A stretch of DNA of 64,000 nucleotides from Paracoccaceae bacterium (lineage in GTDB: Bacteria > Pseudomonadota > Alphaproteobacteria > Rhodobacterales > Rhodobacteraceae), in contig JANSXS010000011.1 of assembly GCA_024742835.1 (NCBI GenBank), positions 1-64,000 of the forward strand. The letters run 5' to 3'. Below, piece by piece: positions 7,431 through 25,662 of this stretch; position 1 is the first letter of the stretch, and each line of letters starts with the position of its first letter. Both the position numbers and the translations under genes were made by a program. The notes below the pieces were generated by a model that ran no database searches, was not told the origin of the DNA, and saw only the letters and a list, made by a program, of their open reading frames with translations.

Positions 7431-8153
7431 TCAGCCAAGCATGGCCTCAATCTGATAAAGAATATCGTCAATGGCAATCCCGCCGGGATCATCATTGACG
7501 ATCAGTATCCCGGCGATATCGGACTGGCCACCGACGCGGCGCAAGGCAATGTCCGTGATGCCAAGCAAAAGCCGGGTGCGGTGTCTTGCGATGACCTTGC
7601 CGTTCCGGCTGTACAGGATCACGTCCGCATGGCCACGCACCGCCGCGCGCTGTCCCAGCGGGTCTGGGTAATCGGTGTGGATGCGCAGCCCGATTGCGGC
7701 CTGATCGCTGTCGAATAAAACCGCGACCGCGCCTTCGCCGCGCGCGCCGCGATCCGGGAAACCCTTTGGGCCAAGCGCAAAGAGCGCGTTGGAGCCGAAC
7801 CCCCTGTGAAAGGCGACGGACAGGTTTGCACCGGGCTGGCCCGCGCGCAGCGCAAGCGGGGCGGCGGGTGGTCCGGTCACGGCGTCGAATCCGTCCCGGT
7901 CGACAAGGGTCTGGCCGCCAAAATGCTCACCCAGCCACAGCGCGCCAAGCCGCATTGCCTGATCGAACGCCAGCCCCGGTTCGGGCCGCTGCGGCACGGT
8001 TTCAAATGTCACCCGCCCCGACGCCCGGTTGGCAAGCTCGGCATAGGTCACCTGCACCAGCGCCGCTGGCTCATCGGCGCGGGCGGGACCGGACAGGCCA
8101 AGCCCCAGGCAAACGATCGTGAAAACCCATCGGGTCAATCTTAAACCGGTCAC
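7431..8153 (-). CDS. Secreted protein with choice-of-anchor-like beta-sandwich
   Basis: A 240-residue protein that I could not assign to a characterised family. The start is a GTG at 8153 with AGGAG six bases upstream; the long reading further upstream is antisense to the next gene. Residues 1-25 form a signal peptide ending in ARA. The body has features of PEP-CTERM/choice-of-anchor style beta-sandwiches: an early VTFETVP, FGSNALFALGPKGFPD in the middle, AIGLRIHTDY, and a late IAGILIVNDDPGGIAIDDI. No sorting tail or transmembrane anchor is visible. It probably works in the periplasm or outside the cell. It heads the TerB-like gene pair. Confidence 0.72.
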   Translation of the reverse strand: MTGLRLTRWVFTIVCLGLGLSGPARADEPAALVQVTYAELANRASGRVTFETVPQRPEPGLAFDQAMRLGALWLGEHFGGQTLVDRDGFDAVTGPPAAPLALRAGQPGANLSVAFHRGFGSNALFALGPKGFPDRGARGEGAVAVLFDSDQAAIGLRIHTDYPDPLGQRAAVRGHADVILYSRNGKVIARHRTRLLLGITDIALRRVGGQSDIAGILIVNDDPGGIAIDDILYQIEAMLG

Positions 8154-8223
8154 AATTGCTCCTAAATCTGCCCGCTTTTGCGGGGCAGTTTGCCGGAAAG
8201 TCCTAACAAGCCAGGGGTGCGCC

Positions 8224-8838
8224 ATGTCTGCTTTCGCACGTTTCACACAGTATGACTGGTCTGGTCGCACAGCGGAAGAACAGCTTGCGCTGCTGCGCGC
8301 GCTCTCGGACGAAAACCTGCGCGATCTTGCGCGGGGCTTTGACTGGGACGTGCATCCGCTCCATCTGCTTCGGTGGATCATGGCGCAGAAATGCATTGAT
8401 CTGGGCACCGCGCTCAGCGTGTTTTTCAACAGTGGCCCGGAGCGGTTCAACTATGTGCCAAAGCGCGAGCTGCCCGAAAACCTGCAAGAAACGGCAAGCG
8501 TGCTTGATACGTTGTGTCTGCGGCTGAATTCGGGGTTCTACCTTGTCTGGCCAAATAGCGACGCCACCGATCGCAACCGGGTGCGGCAATGGCTGGCGAC
8601 CCAGGCGCAGGACCGGCAGACCGGGCGGCAGGGCCGCTTCGTGCTGGACGAAACCATCGTCGGCACGCTTCTCAATAACGAGCTTTGCCTTGATCCGGCG
8701 GCGGAAACCGCAGTCTATGAGCAGAACACGTCCATCTGGCGGGACATCTTCAGCCCGGTTCTGGAACTGGGCGTGTCGCGGCGGGTGCTGCGCTACAAGC
8801 CCCGTAACGATGACGACCTGTCGAAACTTGAATTCTGA
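8224..8838 (+). CDS. DUF4274 domain-containing protein
   Basis: A 204-residue cytoplasmic protein whose residues 20-80 match the DUF4274 pattern: LALLRALSDENLRDLARGFDW followed by DLGTALSVFFNSGPERF. The rest is charged and helical with no recognised motif. I chose the ATG at 8224, preceded by AGGGG; in-frame codons upstream from 8119 overlap the divergent secreted protein gene. The spacer to that gene is only 70 bases, so the two promoters must be back to back. Function is unknown. Confidence 0.7.
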   Translation: MSAFARFTQYDWSGRTAEEQLALLRALSDENLRDLARGFDWDVHPLHLLRWIMAQKCIDLGTALSVFFNSGPERFNYVPKRELPENLQETASVLDTLCLRLNSGFYLVWPNSDATDRNRVRQWLATQAQDRQTGRQGRFVLDETIVGTLLNNELCLDPAAETAVYEQNTSIWRDIFSPVLELGVSRRVLRYKPRNDDDLSKLEF

Positions 8839-8844
8839 GCGAGC

Positions 8845-8888
8845 CCGGTTTCTTGTAAGAAACCGGATCGGAAAATTGCAATTTTCCG
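8845..8888. repeat. GATC-linked tandem hairpins, array A
   Basis: Two perfect palindromes in a row. The first has 10-bp arms at 8845-8854 and 8857-8866 around GT. The second is a 20-base palindrome at 8869-8888 with centre TTGCAA. The junction reads CCGGATCGG. The array sits between two convergent genes (DUF4274 and pyrG) and could act as a terminator in both directions. Related arrays lie at 18178-18221 and 59024-59093. Confidence 0.75.
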
Positions 8889-8900
8889 TCTGCGCGCCGA

Positions 8901-10544
<1,644 letters not shown>

Positions 10545-20180: not shown

Positions 20181-20921
20181 TCAGGGCGCGCCCGTGCGTC
20201 TGGCGCGGGCGGCAAGCACATCGCGTCCCAGCGTCATCGTATAGGATTCCAGGGCATGTAACGCGGTATCCGCGCGCCCCGCATGTCGATCCGCAAGCGC
20301 CTCCAGAAGGGCGCTGTGCAGGCGCACGATTTCCCCGCGCGAGCGGGCGGTGAAGGTGATCATGTTCATCAATGGCTGCATCGCCTCGACCGCGCCGGCA
20401 AGCTGGTAGCTGAGCACGGGATTGCCGGCGGCATCCACCAGCGCGCGGTGAAGGGCCACGTCCGAGGCGCAGAAATCCTCGTCTGACAGGGCGGCATCCG
20501 CCTGTCTTTCGATCTCTTTGCGGATCATCGACAGGTGGCGTGGCGTTCGGCGTTGGGCGGCAAGCGGCGCGCAGGCGCGTTCCATCGCATAGCGCGCCTC
20601 GCAGGCTGTCTCGAACCGGACGTCATTCATCGACAACAACAGCGTCGATGTGGTTATATGCTGCCCATAGGCATCGTGATAGCACAGCCGATTGACAAAG
20701 GCCCCGCCGAACGCGCCGCGCTGCGTGCGGATCAGGGATTGCGCCGCCAGACGTTTCAGCGCCTCGCGCACGGTGGATCGCGACACGCCGAACTGGTCCG
20801 CCAACTCTGATTCCGAAGGCAGCCGCTCGTCCACGATCATATCCCCCGAGACAATCGCGTCGCGGATCGCTTGCGCGATCTGGGCCGACAGGTCGGCGTT
20901 GCTTTCAGGATCAATTTTCAT
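20181..20921 (-). CDS. GntR-family (FadR subfamily) regulator, probable DMSP/acrylate regulator
   Basis: A 246-residue FadR-type regulator. The N-terminal winged helix is clear (RLPSESELADQFGVSRSTVREALKRL), followed by an all-helical FCD ligand domain. The divergent promoter region holds two GntR-type half- or full-operators, including TTGTCTGACAA, so it probably controls itself and the operon starting at 20981. In Ruegeria pomeroyi a GntR regulator next to dmdA-acuI responds to acrylate; the present gene lies in the same neighbourhood but is separated from dmdA by three genes. That functional link is inference. Confidence 0.88.
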   Translation of the reverse strand: MKIDPESNADLSAQIAQAIRDAIVSGDMIVDERLPSESELADQFGVSRSTVREALKRLAAQSLIRTQRGAFGGAFVNRLCYHDAYGQHITTSTLLLSMNDVRFETACEARYAMERACAPLAAQRRTPRHLSMIRKEIERQADAALSDEDFCASDVALHRALVDAAGNPVLSYQLAGAVEAMQPLMNMITFTARSRGEIVRLHSALLEALADRHAGRADTALHALESYTMTLGRDVLAARARRTGAP

Positions 20922-20922
20922 T

Positions 20923-20949
20923 TGTCATACATTTAATTGTCTGACAATT
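20923..20949. promoter_or_regulatory. Paired GntR/FadR-type operators
   Basis: Within the 59-base spacer between the regulator and DUF2182, a dyad AATTGTCTGACAATT spans 20935-20949 and a related TTGTCATACAT lies at 20923-20933. Both fit the FadR-subfamily pattern TNGTNNNACNA, the second less well. Their position allows autoregulation and control of the divergent operon. Confidence 0.7.
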
Positions 20950-20980: not shown

Positions 20981-21742
20981 ATGATTTCGGCACGAATCAG
21001 GCGGATGACAGGGGGGCATTGGCTGTTGATGTTCGGCCTGATTTTGCTGTCCTGGTCGATGCTTTACCTTATGGCATTGCCGCCCGATCTGCGAGATGCG
21101 GGGCGCATTTACGGCGCTGACCTGCTTGCGGGGCTGTGCGTGGTCACGCCCGATGCGGCGGGTTTTGCGCGGATCGCGCTTATGTGGGCGCTGATGTCGG
21201 CGGCGATGATGGCCCCCACGGCGCTGCCTGCGCTGGCCACCTATGACGAGCTTGCCCATGCCGGGGGCACCCGCCTGGGCGTGCTGCTGGCCGGGTATCT
21301 GGCGGTGTGGCTTGGGTTTTCGGTCCTGGCGGCGGCGGTGCAGATGGCGCTGTTTCGCGCCGACCTGATCAGCGCCTTCGGTGACAGCCGCTCGTCATGG
21401 TTGTCGGCCGCGCTTTTGCTGCTGGCCGGGGGTTATCAGTTCAGCGCGCTCAAAGAGGCATGTCTTGCCAAATGCCGCGCGCCGCTGACGTTTTTCATGC
21501 AGCATTGGGACGAGGGGGCGTGGCGCAACGGCCTGCGGCTGGGCGTGCTGTGCCTTGGCTGTTGCGGGGCGCTGATGGCGCTGGCCTTTGTGGGCGGGGT
21601 CATGAACCTGGCGTTCATGGGGCTGGCGACGGTGATCATGGTGATCGAGAAACTGCCCGGTTTGGGTCGGTGGCTGACACGCCCCTTGGGGGCCGTCTTG
21701 CTGGCGGCCGGGGGCTTTGTGGCGCTGAGCGCCGGGATTTGA
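20981..21742 (+). CDS. DUF2182 multi-pass membrane protein
   Basis: A 253-residue integral membrane protein of the DUF2182 family, annotated elsewhere as a predicted metal-binding membrane protein. About six or seven hydrophobic helices surround conserved motifs: MSAAMMAPTALP near residue 75, ALKEACLAKCRAP (Cys161, Cys165) and LCLGCCGALM (Cys191, 194, 195). The cysteines could bind a metal or take part in thiol chemistry. It is the first gene after the GntR operators and precedes the DUF1326 gene by 18 bases; the two families commonly occur together. No biochemical role is known. Confidence 0.87.
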   Translation: MISARIRRMTGGHWLLMFGLILLSWSMLYLMALPPDLRDAGRIYGADLLAGLCVVTPDAAGFARIALMWALMSAAMMAPTALPALATYDELAHAGGTRLGVLLAGYLAVWLGFSVLAAAVQMALFRADLISAFGDSRSSWLSAALLLLAGGYQFSALKEACLAKCRAPLTFFMQHWDEGAWRNGLRLGVLCLGCCGALMALAFVGGVMNLAFMGLATVIMVIEKLPGLGRWLTRPLGAVLLAAGGFVALSAGI

Positions 21743-21760
21743 ACAAAGGGAGGGCCGGAC

Positions 21761-22444
21761 ATGGCCGCTGAGAACATCGAAACACGGGCCGACACCGAAA
21801 GCCGGACACCCGGCGCGCCGAAAGCGGGGCAGGATCTTGTGCCATGGGAGATCAAGGGCGAGCTGATTCTAAACTGCAATTGCACGGTGTTCTGTCCCTG
21901 TGTGGTTTCGCTTGGTCAGCACCCGCCGACCGAGGGGTATTGCCAGGCCTGGTCGGGCGTGCGCATCGACAAGGGGCATCACGGCGACACTGATCTGTCG
22001 GGGCTGAATGTCGGGCTGATGCTGGAAATTCCGGGCCTGATGGCGCGCGGCAACTGGAAGGCGGCCGCCTATATCGACGACCGCGCAAGCGATGACGCCT
22101 TTGACGCGCTGGTCGCTATTTTCAGCGGCAAGGCACGGGGCACGACCGGGCTTTTCGGTGTGCTGGTGTCCGAGTTTCTTGGCGCAGAGCGCGCGCCCGT
22201 GGTCTTCGAGACCGAGGGCAAGGCACGCCGGCTGATGGTCGGCAAAAAGATCCAGGGCGAAGTGGTGCCGGTCACCGGCCATAACGGCGAGGATATTGTC
22301 GTGACCAACACCGAATACTGGATGGGCCCCGACATCACGGTTGCCACCGCCACCAAGGGCCGCGTGCGCGCCTTTGGCCGGGTCTGGGATTTCGACGGTC
22401 GCAGCGCCGAAATCTGCCAGATTGACTGGAAAGGCCCAAGGTAA
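21761..22444 (+). CDS. DUF1326 domain-containing protein
   Basis: A 227-residue soluble protein of the DUF1326 family. After about 30 polar residues, the conserved cluster LNCNCTVFCPC appears (Cys39, 41, 45, 47) with a further Cys61, which suggests metal or thiol binding. The rest alternates beta strands such as GLFGVLVSEFLGAERAPVVFE. There is no signal peptide, so it is probably cytoplasmic. It lies between its usual partner DUF2182 and a DinB gene, with gaps of 18 and 14 bases. Function is unknown. Confidence 0.87.
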   Translation: MAAENIETRADTESRTPGAPKAGQDLVPWEIKGELILNCNCTVFCPCVVSLGQHPPTEGYCQAWSGVRIDKGHHGDTDLSGLNVGLMLEIPGLMARGNWKAAAYIDDRASDDAFDALVAIFSGKARGTTGLFGVLVSEFLGAERAPVVFETEGKARRLMVGKKIQGEVVPVTGHNGEDIVVTNTEYWMGPDITVATATKGRVRAFGRVWDFDGRSAEICQIDWKGPR

Positions 22445-22458
22445 AGGCAGACGGTTAG

Positions 22459-22962
22459 ATGATCACGCCCGAATACTGCCGCAGCATGGCGCGTCACAAT
22501 GCCTGGCAGAACCGTCAATACGCCGATCAATTGCGGGGCCTGTCGCTGACCGATCTGACCCGCGATCGCGGCGCGTTTTTCGGCTCGATCCTTGGCACGC
22601 TCAGTCACCTTGTCTGGGCGGACCAGGCCTGGATGGCCCGGTTTGACCCTTCCGTCGATGGCCCGGTGGGCGATGTGGCCGAAAGCGTGTCGCTTTGTCC
22701 CACGCTTGGCGTTTGGAGCGCAGAGCGGCACCATCTGGACGGCAAGATCAGCCATTGGGCCGGCGCGTTGCGCGCGGTCGACCTCTCGGGTGATCTGGCA
22801 TGGCATTCCGCCAGCACTGGCGGCGCCATGCGCGTGCCGCTGGCGGCCTGTATCGCCCATATGTTCAATCACCAGACCCATCATCGCGGCCAGATCCACG
22901 CAATGATGACAGCGGCCGGTCTGACCGCGCCGGTTTCGGATCTTTTCCTTCTGCCGGAGTGA
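22459..22962 (+). CDS. DinB family protein
   Basis: A 167-residue four-helix-bundle protein of the DinB/YfiT group, many of which are metal-dependent thiol transferases. Candidate metal ligands are His50 in GTLSHLVWADQAW, and His138 and His142 in HMFNHQTHHRGQIH. The group uses low-molecular-weight thiols as co-substrates in several known members. It sits five bases before dmdA, tightly enough for translational coupling. A thiol-linked task beside DMSP demethylation, whose pathway yields methanethiol, is an attractive but untested idea. Confidence 0.87.
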   Translation: MITPEYCRSMARHNAWQNRQYADQLRGLSLTDLTRDRGAFFGSILGTLSHLVWADQAWMARFDPSVDGPVGDVAESVSLCPTLGVWSAERHHLDGKISHWAGALRAVDLSGDLAWHSASTGGAMRVPLAACIAHMFNHQTHHRGQIHAMMTAAGLTAPVSDLFLLPE

Positions 22963-22967
22963 CGCTA

Positions 22968-24080
22968 ATGACGTTGCCTTTGCTTTCCCCGTCCCGCCGC
23001 CTGCGCCGCACGCCCTTTTCCGAAGGGGTAGAGGCGGCGGGCGTCAAGGCCTACACGGTTTACAACCACATGCTTTTGCCGACGATGTTCCGCTCGGTCG
23101 AAGAGGATTATCGCCATTTGAAAGAGGCGGTGCAGATCTGGGACGTGTCCTGCGAGCGGCAAGTAGAGCTGCGCGGCCCGGATGCCGGGCGGCTGATGCA
23201 GATGCTGACCCCGCGTGATCTGCGCGGCATGACACCGGGTCAGTGCTATTACGTGCCCATCGTCGACGAGACGGGAGGCATGTTGAATGATCCGGTCTCG
23301 GTCAAGCTGTCGGAAGAACGCTGGTGGATCTCCATCGCCGACAGTGATCTGCTGTACTGGGTGAAGGCTACCGCGCATGGCTGGCGGCTGGATGTGCTGG
23401 TGGACGAGCCCGACATCTCGCCGCTTGCGGTGCAGGGGCCCAGGGCGGATGACCTGCTGGCGCGGGTCTTTGGCGACAGCGTACGCGACATCCGGTTTTT
23501 CCGCTTCAATCAGTATCAATTCATGGGTCGTGATCTGGTGGTCGCGCGTTCGGGCTATTCCAAGCAGGGCGGTTTCGAGATCTACGTGGAGGGCGACGAG
23601 ATCGGTATGCCGCTGTGGAATGCGCTGATGGAGGCGGGCGGCGATCTGGATGTTCATGCCGGTTGCCCGAACCTGATAGAGCGGATCGAAAGCGGGCTGC
23701 TTAGCTATGGCAATGACATGACGGATGACAACACGCCGCATGAATGCGGGTTGGGGCGGTTCTGCAACACGCAATCGGCGATTGGATGTATCGGACGCGA
23801 TGCGCTATTGCGTGTCGCGAAAGAAGGGCCGACGCAGCAGATCAGGCCCATCGCCATCGACGGGCCGCCGGTGCCGCGCTGTGACAGGTGGTGGCCGATG
23901 CGCGCGGGGCACAAGGTGGTGGGGCGGATAAGCTCTGCCGCATGGAGCCCGGATTTCGACACGAACGTGGCCATCGGCATGGTGAAGATGACCCATTGGG
24001 ACGACGGCACCGCGCTGGAGGTTGACACGCCCGACGGGCCGCGCGCGGCGGTGGTGCAGGACGGGTTCTGGAATACCTGA
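22968..24080 (+). CDS. dmdA: Dimethylsulfoniopropionate demethylase
   Basis: A 370-residue glycine-cleavage T-protein-like enzyme that closely follows Roseobacter DmdA: RRTPFSEGVEAAGVKAYTVYNHMLLP, WDVSCERQVELRGPDA, RDIRFFRFNQYQF, ARSGYSKQGGFEIYVEG, GCPNLIERIESGLLSYGNDMT and ECGLGRFCNTQ. It moves a methyl group from DMSP to tetrahydrofolate and gives methylmercaptopropionate. Related aminomethyltransferases and DmdA-like paralogues exist, but the adjacent acuI and the length support true DmdA. GGAG lies eight bases before the ATG at 22968. A small hairpin (24132-24146) separates it from acuI. Confidence 0.9.
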   Translation: MTLPLLSPSRRLRRTPFSEGVEAAGVKAYTVYNHMLLPTMFRSVEEDYRHLKEAVQIWDVSCERQVELRGPDAGRLMQMLTPRDLRGMTPGQCYYVPIVDETGGMLNDPVSVKLSEERWWISIADSDLLYWVKATAHGWRLDVLVDEPDISPLAVQGPRADDLLARVFGDSVRDIRFFRFNQYQFMGRDLVVARSGYSKQGGFEIYVEGDEIGMPLWNALMEAGGDLDVHAGCPNLIERIESGLLSYGNDMTDDNTPHECGLGRFCNTQSAIGCIGRDALLRVAKEGPTQQIRPIAIDGPPVPRCDRWWPMRAGHKVVGRISSAAWSPDFDTNVAIGMVKMTHWDDGTALEVDTPDGPRAAVVQDGFWNT

Positions 24081-24167
24081 CGCCGCGCGGGATCGCCCGC
24101 CGGGACCGGGGCGTTCGGACAAGGATGAAAACAGGCCGCCGGCCTGCATGTGGAAAAGGAGAGCAAG

Positions 24168-25163
24168 ATGTTCAACGCGCTGATCGTGGAAAAGGACGAG
24201 GAAAGCGGCAAGACCTCTGCCGCGGTAAAGGAAATTTCCGAAAGCGACCTGCCCGAGGGCGAGGTGACCGTTGCGGTCGACTACTCCACCGTTAACTACA
24301 AGGACGGGCTGTGCATCGGGCCGGGTGGCGGGCTTGTGCGCAATTACCCGCATGTGCCAGGCATTGATTTCGCCGGAACCGTCGAGGACAGCACGGATGC
24401 GCGCTACAAGCCCGGCGACAAAATCGTGCTGACCGGCTGGCGCGTCGGAGAGGCGCATTGGGGCGGTTACGCGCAAAAAGCGCGGGTCAAGGCCGACTGG
24501 CTGGTGCCGTTGCCCGCTGGGCTGGACACGCGGTCCGCGATGGCCGTGGGCACCGCCGGGTTCACCGCCATGCTGGCGGTAATGGCGTTGGAGGATCACG
24601 GGCTGACGCCGGGCGGCAAGCCGGTTCTGGTCACGGGCGCGGCTGGTGGTGTCGGCTCTGTCGCGACCGCGATCCTCGCCCACCTGGGTCATGACGTGGC
24701 CGCCGTGACCGGACGGCCCGAGCAGGAGGATTACCTCAAAAACCTTGGCGCCACGCAGATCGTGCCGCGTGAGGAGCTGACGGACGTGACCCGCAAGCCG
24801 CTGGAAAGCGAGAACTGGTCAGGCTGTGTGGATGCCGTCGCGGGCGCGATGTTGGGCCGGGTGCTCAAGCAGATGGAATACGGCACATCCGTTGCCGCCA
24901 TCGGCCTTGCAGGCGGGGCGGCCATCGAGGGCGCGCTGATCACGCCATTCATCCTGCGTGGCGTGAACCTTTTGGGGATCGACAGCGTGATGCAGCCCTA
25001 TGACAATCGCCTGCGCGCGTGGGAACGTATCGCGGCCGATCTGCCGATGGACAAGCTGGAGGCGATGGTACAGCCCGCGACCCTGTCGGACCTGCCGCAA
25101 CTGGGCCGCGATATTCTCAAAGGTCAGGTGAAGGGCCGCGTGGTGGTGGATGTCAACGCCTGA
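24168..25163 (+). CDS. acuI: Acryloyl-CoA reductase (NADPH), AcuI
   Basis: A 331-residue zinc-free medium-chain dehydrogenase of the YhdH/AcuI group. The N-terminal half has VDYSTVNYKDGLCI and YPHVPGIDFAGTVE; the NADPH fold has VTGAAGGVGSVA at about 155-166. It reduces acryloyl-CoA to propionyl-CoA and so relieves acrylate toxicity during DMSP catabolism. The ATG at 24168 follows AAAAGGAGA; six in-frame codons before it are rejected. It lies 87 bases after dmdA, as in many Roseobacter genomes, and overlaps a GNAT gene. Confidence 0.92.
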   Translation: MFNALIVEKDEESGKTSAAVKEISESDLPEGEVTVAVDYSTVNYKDGLCIGPGGGLVRNYPHVPGIDFAGTVEDSTDARYKPGDKIVLTGWRVGEAHWGGYAQKARVKADWLVPLPAGLDTRSAMAVGTAGFTAMLAVMALEDHGLTPGGKPVLVTGAAGGVGSVATAILAHLGHDVAAVTGRPEQEDYLKNLGATQIVPREELTDVTRKPLESENWSGCVDAVAGAMLGRVLKQMEYGTSVAAIGLAGGAAIEGALITPFILRGVNLLGIDSVMQPYDNRLRAWERIAADLPMDKLEAMVQPATLSDLPQLGRDILKGQVKGRVVVDVNA

Positions 25164-25662
25164 CGACCTGAACATCCGGCTGGTGCGCGACGGCGACAAG
25201 GGCGCGCTCTGGCCGATCCTGCGCGACGTGGTGCGCGCGGGCGATACCTATGCGATCGAGCCGGGGCTTTCGCAGGGGATGCTGATGGATTATTGGTGCA
25301 AGGCCCCGCGCGCCACCTATGTGGCAGAGTCCGGGGGCGAGATCCTTGGCACCTATTACATCAAGACCAACCAGGCCGGTGGTGGTGCGCATGTGTGCAA
25401 TTGCGGCTATATCACCGCGCCAGCTGCGCGGGGCAGGGGCGTGGCGCGAGCCATGTGCCTGCACAGCCAGAATGTCGCGCGCGATCTGGGCTATCTGGCG
25501 ATGCAGTTCAATCTCGTCGTCTCTACCAACACGGGCGCACTGCGGCTGTGGGAAGCCCTTGAATACGAACGGGTGGGCCATTTGCCCGCCGCCTTCCGGC
25601 ATCCTGTTGCGGGGCTTGTGGATGCGTTTGTGATGTATAAATGGCTGGGCGCGCCCGGCTGA
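25150..25662 (+). CDS. GNAT family N-acetyltransferase
   Basis: A 170-residue single-domain GNAT acetyltransferase. The fold is visible from the strand GEILGTYYIKTNQ, the acetyl-CoA loop APAARGRGVARAM and the late helix NTGALRLWEALEYERVG. The substrate is unknown. It overlaps the acuI stop by 14 bases, so it belongs to the same transcript; whether it takes part in DMSP metabolism is open. A GTG at 25183 is an alternative start. Confidence 0.88.
   Translation: MSTPDDLNIRLVRDGDKGALWPILRDVVRAGDTYAIEPGLSQGMLMDYWCKAPRATYVAESGGEILGTYYIKTNQAGGGAHVCNCGYITAPAARGRGVARAMCLHSQNVARDLGYLAMQFNLVVSTNTGALRLWEALEYERVGHLPAAFRHPVAGLVDAFVMYKWLGAPG

Follow-up and report, generated by a model that had tools for sequence, protein, structure and literature searches.

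The window analysed here is a 64,000-nucleotide stretch of Paracoccaceae bacterium DNA (contig JANSXS010000011.1, positions 1 to 64,000). It carries an operon for the breakdown of dimethylsulfoniopropionate (DMSP), in which genes for PpoB2 (formerly DUF2182), a DUF1326 protein and a DinB-like protein stand between a divergent GntR regulator gene and dmdA-acuI. Across the bacterial family of the window, ppoB2 and DUF1326 (the block) form a two-gene unit associated with acuI; the constant set is GntR-PpoB2-DUF1326-(DinB)-acuI, with dmdA common but optional. This linkage and an operator common to the different layouts are well supported, and we hold both with high confidence. We tentatively interpret the genes as a Cu(I)/thiol guard module belonging to the acuI operon, a reading that is possible rather than probable and whose doubt lies mostly in the chemistry. 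The dmdA-acuI operon serves as a standard marker for DMSP breakdown in the sea; published accounts, cited below from the parts of their text that were available, treat it as two genes. A literature search, mostly at the abstract level, returned no description of the block, and no paper was found under the names DUF1326 or DUF2182. What is new is the recognition of how a known operon is composed and controlled; the kind of system is not itself new.

Linkage of ppoB2 and DUF1326 to acuI and dmdA

The main survey covered 198 genomes, one per genus of the family of the window, and neighbours were counted within 5 kb on the same strand. DUF1326 is present in 106 of these genomes and PpoB2 in 110, and an adjacent same-strand ppoB2/DUF1326 pair occurs in all 106 DUF1326 genomes. 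The gene order of the window, ppoB2 then DUF1326 (pair A), was found at 96 loci in 95 genomes, and the opposite order (pair B) in 20 genomes; nine genomes have both pairs. Among the 96 pair-A loci, at least 74 have acuI within 5 kb, 64 have dmdA, at least 83 have one or the other and at least 55 have both. The acuI figures are lower bounds drawn from the 150 acuI matches listed (180 of the 198 genomes contain a match), and contig ends, which hide some neighbours, reduce the adjacency counts further; DmdA matches below about 380 bits were dropped, which left 90. Conversely, pair A stands at 55 of 60 dmdA-acuI neighbours among the matches listed. Nineteen of the 74 acuI-linked pair-A loci, again among the matches listed, have no dmdA within 5 kb, although these include one genome with a split dmdA-like gene (G014) and some others with dmdA elsewhere in the genome. 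In G014 (contig C59, L013) the dmdA-like gene is called as two pieces between DUF1326 and acuI, and the genome has no full DmdA match.

Over the 198 genera, pair A and dmdA occur together in 71, pair A only in 24, dmdA only in 13 and neither in 90 (Fisher p = 1e-19, odds ratio 20), in tests that treat genera as independent and ignore shared ancestry, as do the stratified tests below. Pair B shows no link to dmdA in the same 198 genomes (p = 0.63). Because of the adjacency counts, and because pair B is not linked to dmdA, we place pair A with acuI and regard dmdA as a frequent extra. A first-pass annotation of the window had associated the block with dmdA-acuI; the neighbourhood comparison confirms a real and recurrent association, including the linkage to dmdA, but identifies acuI as the more constant partner.

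A second sample was obtained by scanning named genomes with a pair-A DUF1326 profile and comprises the best 80 of 569 relatives, hence close ones. At these 80 loci ppoB2 is present in 78, AcuI in 69, DmdA in 56 and a nearby gntR in 60, some of the losses being contig ends; the named genomes with the block include Roseovarius, Shimia, Jannaschia, Yoonia, Tritonibacter and three Ruegeria species. Gene calls and starts in all fetched loci were set by our own gene-calling script. Outside the family, PpoB2 adjoins DUF1326 in 18 of 20 loci fetched from 45 listed places (some of them in-family), and no other partner is common to the 20, both as read by eye. One locus from another alphaproteobacterial family (L090) has the order PpoB2-DUF1326-DmdB-like ligase, and a further alphaproteobacterial locus (L093) has the same order with no acuI or dmdA label nearby. 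In two distant taxa (L097 and L107), methyltransferase-like, SDR-like, DUF1326 and PpoB2 genes lie in a row, the first two names coming from reading of the sequence.

Operator and regulation

The region between gntR and the first gene of the operon contains two tandem 11-base near-palindromes, TTGTCATACAT and TTGTCTGACAA, with a spacing of 15 bases in the window. In 79 of 83 gntR-divergent regions the best word agrees with TTGTCTGACAA at nine or more of 11 positions, a count that is not independent of the window, from which the reference word was taken. A strict paired pattern searched over the 198 genomes gave 41 rows in 36 genomes, against two for the reversed control; four places were read on both strands, which leaves 37 distinct sites. 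Of these, 35 lie at the gntR of this operon and two elsewhere (G115 and G184). Thirty precede ppoB2 (29 in the 95 pair-A genomes and one at a contig end in G160), three separate gntR from acuI (G044, G075 and G197), one precedes dmdA (G038) and one lies beside gntR and a ppoB2 fragment (G098). In the last case (G098:C186:21609-21990, L206), gntR and the operator are followed by what appears to be a fragment of ppoB2.

Since strict sites precede ppoB2, acuI or dmdA beside gntR, the sequences identify the block, dmdA and acuI as alternative first genes behind one operator. The dmdA-acuI genes of Ruegeria pomeroyi are induced approximately 10- to 14-fold by acrylate and DMSP (PMC3338564), and because the same operator precedes ppoB2, dmdA or acuI, this induction probably extends to the block. 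The acuI operon of the Rhodobacteraceae/Roseobacteraceae would then be governed by the divergent GntR through the tandem operator, with GntR as the putative sensor. Given the induction in R. pomeroyi, the signal is likely to be acrylate or a compound derived from it, most probably acrylate itself or acrylyl-CoA.

Gene organization in the window

The features of the operon are listed in Table 1. From ppoB2 onward the intergenic gaps are 18, 14, 5 and 87 bases, followed by a 14-base overlap of acuI with a GNAT gene; these distances, together with the gene identities and their order, had been given in the first-pass annotation and agree with the open reading frames and family matches. PpoB2 scores 204 bits against PF09948 (cut-off 28.7) and DUF1326 178 bits against PF07040 (cut-off 25), DmdA passes the curated NF009133 cut-off, and an acuI-type gene follows directly 3' of dmdA. 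The AcuI protein falls below the cut-off of the AcuI equivalog NF051456 (411 versus 440 bits) and its predicted assignment is to the acrylyl-CoA reductase family (TIGR02823) only. The start of ppoB2 may be at 21005 instead of 20981, as the 56-row consensus opens at MxGxHWL (with row starts from our own gene caller). Terminator-like signals in the operon region (six versus 5.2 in shuffled sequences) and promoter-like signals (two versus 1.7) are not above chance. A single transcript, which had been thought likely, is plausible in view of the tight gaps and the lack of a terminator signal above chance; nothing argues against it and nothing proves it. The GNAT gene is found 3' of acuI in 17 of the 80 named loci, mostly Roseovarius. 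For the rest of the demethylation pathway, the best DmdD-like match in the genome of the window has 31% identity and the best DmdC-like match 39%.

Table 1. Features of the acuI operon and its control region in the window.
Feature	Position	Strand	Sequence or family match
GntR/FCD regulator, divergent	20181..20921	-	PF00392 1.4e-19, PF07729 6.1e-18
Predicted tandem operator	20922..20947		TTGTCATACAT at 20922-20932, TTGTCTGACAA at 20937-20947
PpoB2 (former DUF2182), membrane protein, putative Cu(I) transfer	20981..21742	+	PF09948 2.6e-60
DUF1326 protein, CxCx3CxC...C	21761..22444	+	PF07040 2.3e-52
DinB/S-transferase-like, optional member	22459..22962	+	PF05163 3.3e-20
DmdA, DMSP demethylase	22968..24080	+	NF009133 675 bits, cut-off 410
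AcuI/YhdH acrylyl-CoA reductase	24168..25163	+	TIGR02823 437 bits, cut-off 297
GNAT acetyltransferase, lineage-specific tail	25150..25662	+	PF00583 4.8e-10

Two modules, and gain and loss of the block

The three genes ahead of dmdA had been described as one block, which is correct for PpoB2-DUF1326 but not for DinB. After weak matches were dropped, 87 DinB matches were kept; among these 87 listed matches, 58 have acuI within 5 kb, pair A being absent at 17 of the 58, and several loci have the order dinB-acuI-(usp)-BCCT transporter with no ppoB2-DUF1326 block. The three genes are thus two modules, PpoB2-DUF1326 and a separately gained and lost DinB. At seven loci (L220-L224, L226 and L229), dinB-acuI is followed by a BCCT transporter gene and mostly usp, with no ppoB2-DUF1326. 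A BCCT gene adjoining acuI was previously recorded in roseobacters (PMC3338564).

Block-less loci keep the recurring flanking genes and read gntR-dmdA-acuI (L067) or gntR-dinB-dmdA-acuI (L069), and tblastn at E <= 0.01 detects no remnant of either ppoB2 or DUF1326 in them. The suggestion that the block had moved in between the regulator and dmdA-acuI is not upheld: the block is the common state (55 of 60, among the matches listed), the block-less arrangement is rarer, and with L067 and L069 free of remnants we reject a recent insertion. A quick AcuI tree of 124 loci requires a minimum of 22 changes for the block, 30 for dmdA and 34 for dinB. The gene content of the operon is fluid, and the AcuI tree does not separate gain from loss.

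Conserved residues, structural models and co-variation

The residue counts other than the 56 PpoB2 rows, like the 83 intergenic regions, the AcuI tree and the co-variation set, are from pooled sets that hold some genomes twice, with duplicate contigs such as L063/L148, L060/L137, L055/L140, L028/L149 and L032/L172. Alignment A2 comprises 40 of 41 candidates plus the window (L147 was left out) and alignment A3 omits seven of 62 candidates. In PpoB2, Met68, Trp69, Met72, Met76, Met77, Cys161, Cys165, Cys191, Cys194 and Cys195 are invariant in 56 rows; they form the stretches MWxxMxxxMM, CLxxCR-like and CxxCC, and the five cysteines are kept in 93 of 93 sequences. In DUF1326, Cys39, Cys41, Cys45, Cys47, His54 and Cys61 are kept in 97 of 97 sequences, and no hydrophobic segment exceeds the cut used. 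Five N-terminal cysteines are typical of the DUF1326 family. The cysteine clusters noticed in both proteins on first inspection are therefore conserved, as five N-terminal residues in DUF1326 and two clusters in PpoB2. The three putative metal-binding histidines of DinB are also kept (His50 in 55 of 55, His138 and His142 each in 54 of 55), and the DinB of the window scores 22.9 bits against the Pfam mycothiol-transferase model MST, under its cut-off of 27.

The PpoB2 model is helical, with a predicted local distance difference test (pLDDT) score of 88. It has no Foldseek match in the PDB at E <= 0.001, which is not evidence of a new fold, and its best VIA-align Z score of 5.2 is uninformative for helical bundles. 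Neither DUF1326 nor PpoB2 has a sequence relative in the PDB at E <= 1, and the only one for DinB is 3di5 (E = 0.0015). Co-variation was assessed from pairwise distances over 47 loci with all five genes, with the maximum of 200 permutations given here in parentheses. Correlations above this maximum were obtained for PpoB2-DUF1326, 0.74 (0.37), PpoB2-GntR, 0.60 (0.32), and PpoB2-AcuI, 0.29 (0.20), as well as for GntR-DmdA, 0.45 (0.38), GntR-AcuI, 0.36 (0.22), and DmdA-AcuI, 0.23 (0.17).

Proposed function and alternatives

Pfam now names DUF2182 as PpoB2, 'Copper chaperone'. PpoB2 of Marinomonas mediterranea is involved in copper transfer to tyrosinase (PMC2855505), and eight DinB-superfamily proteins of Bacillus subtilis (BstA-H) are metal-dependent thiol transferases in which three histidines are the only invariant residues (PMC5815605). 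By analogy, PpoB2 would be a membrane protein whose methionine and cysteine clusters take up Cu(I) and hand it on, with DUF1326 as its soluble cysteine-cluster partner; together they may retain, transfer or replenish Cu(I) and protect thiol ligands during DMSP breakdown. The stress would come from acrylyl-CoA, which attacks thiols, and, after DmdA, from methanethiol, which binds Cu(I). DinB could act beside AcuI as a metal-dependent thiol S-transferase that removes electrophiles. The thiol in the group of the window would be glutathione, unlike the bacillithiol of B. subtilis. A protective function is plausible. The interpretation draws on the linkage, the operator, the induction in R. pomeroyi, the conserved residues, the co-variation of PpoB2 with DUF1326 and GntR, and the adjacency of dinB and acuI. 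It also draws on DMSP markers, since dmdA, SBP56 or a cupin lyase family member occurs in 87 of the 95 pair-A genomes versus 48 of the 103 others. In a more specific form that we consider doubtful, PpoB2-DUF1326 would be a membrane-cytosol Cu(I) relay, switched by acrylate via the dedicated GntR, that protects or re-metalates cuproproteins while acrylyl-CoA and methanethiol are produced.

Several observations weigh against the Cu(I)/thiol guard interpretation. The proposed copper role is drawn from family membership and from a single tested, distant PpoB2, and the DUF1326 model is poor (pLDDT 54), so that its structural matches were not used. Of the 95 pair-A genomes, only 29 contain the strict operator pattern; the other 66 have no strict match at ppoB2, and in several of these the sites match less closely or differ in spacing. 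Eight of the pair-A genomes have none of the three DMSP markers (dddP was not among the markers searched). Among dmdA-bearing genomes the block is associated neither with SBP56 (44 of 71 with the pair versus six of 13 without it; p = 0.36) nor with cupin lyases (p = 0.77; in dmdA-lacking genomes p = 0.097). The PpoB2-DmdA distance correlation of 0.41 equals its permutation maximum (0.41), and DUF1326 does not exceed the maximum with GntR, 0.20 (0.31), DmdA, 0.24 (0.57), or AcuI, 0.12 (0.20). PpoB2 thus co-varies with DUF1326 and the regulator, and the distances show no link between DUF1326 and the remaining genes. Independent pairs on the AcuI tree number only three to four supported, too few for a test of co-gain.

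This lack of tracking of AcuI or DmdA by DUF1326 would also be expected if the pair served general copper housekeeping and were kept by inheritance of a stable locus, with no functional tie to acrylate or DMSP. The recurring flanks of the locus fit such hitchhiking, as do the 20 pair-B genomes, in which neither dmdA nor any DMSP marker is linked to the pair (p = 0.8 for any marker). However, the content of the locus changes often, as seen for the block and dmdA on the AcuI tree, yet for the most part the block, gntR, the operator and acuI are retained as a set, and the operator lies directly before ppoB2; we judge hitchhiking unlikely. An explanation without copper, to which we give similarly little credence, is a thiol sink for electrophiles, in which the DUF1326 cysteines and DinB would trap acrylate or acrylyl-CoA and PpoB2 would export the adducts or handle cysteine redox. 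It would suit an operon centred on AcuI, described in the available accounts as the remover of thiol-reactive acrylyl-CoA, and could draw on the five invariant N-terminal cysteines of DUF1326 and the histidine triad of DinB. A stoichiometric protein sink would nevertheless be a poor detoxifier, and the membrane Met/Cys sites of PpoB2 resemble a soft-metal site in a family whose one tested member is copper-linked (PMC2855505).

PpoB2-DUF1326 might instead load copper into an SBP56 methanethiol-oxidase-like enzyme, as PpoB2 does for tyrosinase. The SBP56 methanethiol oxidase is copper-dependent (PMC5739008); an SBP56 gene adjoins the operon in L042, L123, L157, L165 and L179 and is near acuI or dmdA in other layouts in L225 and L045, and the genome of the window has one on another contig (G000:C8:95799-97175, L047). 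In dmdA-lacking genomes SBP56 is weakly associated with the block (eight of 24 with it versus ten of 90 without; p = 0.02, odds ratio 4.0). Against this, only 52 of the 95 pair-A genomes have an SBP56 match, and no association is seen in dmdA-bearing genomes (SBP56 present/absent 44/27 with the pair and 6/7 without it). Five SBP56 proteins (L045, L047, L046, L043 and L123) score 107-162 bits versus the NCBIfam MtoX cut-off of 650 and are not established as methanethiol oxidases; the label 'MtoX' in our locus annotation denotes an SBP56 homologue and no more. On comparing listings, only one of the 37 strict operator sites is near SBP56 (G043, between gntR and ppoB2), apart from the site at a contig end in G160, which lies some 2.4 kb from a fragment of SBP56, and many known mtoX operons carry their own SCO1/SenC (PMC5739008). 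The stratified test and the MtoX scores downgrade a methanethiol-oxidase chaperone as the main role, which we consider distinctly unlikely; a dedicated chaperone is possible in some lineages and is not a general answer. In L043 a distant PpoB2 gene, which would fit such a role, directly follows the SBP56 gene (7878-9221) in the same direction. SBP56 followed by a membrane protein of roughly 220 residues (our label 'MtoM'; the one example examined has no Pfam match) is a recurrent arrangement, seen near acuI or dmdA in seven loci (those named above).

Should the Cu(I) relay be correct, DUF1326 would have a function, and copper would be tied to the choice between demethylation and cleavage in roseobacters. 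DUF1326 in any case gains a defined, probably inducible setting, and work on R. pomeroyi, reported as dmdA-acuI, may give an incomplete picture of how other genera respond.

Comparison with known systems

The DinB of the window shares the three conserved histidines and the DinB Pfam match with BstA-H. SBP56 MtoX removes methanethiol in a copper-dependent manner (PMC5739008), and homologues adjoin some copies of the operon; MtoX is absent from the operon of the window, and the SBP56 neighbours scored far below the MtoX cut-off. PpoB2 of M. mediterranea belongs to the same family (PF09948, Pfam name PpoB2) as the protein of the window. There the protein acts for a tyrosinase whose gene lies in the same operon (PMC2855505), whereas the operon of the window has no known copper enzyme and the constant partner of its PpoB2 is DUF1326. 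In R. pomeroyi, as in the window, dmdA is followed by acuI, and both are induced there by DMSP and acrylate. The available text on that operon names no genes upstream of dmdA (Todd et al. 2012, PMC3338564), whereas the operon of the window opens with ppoB2, DUF1326 and dinB.

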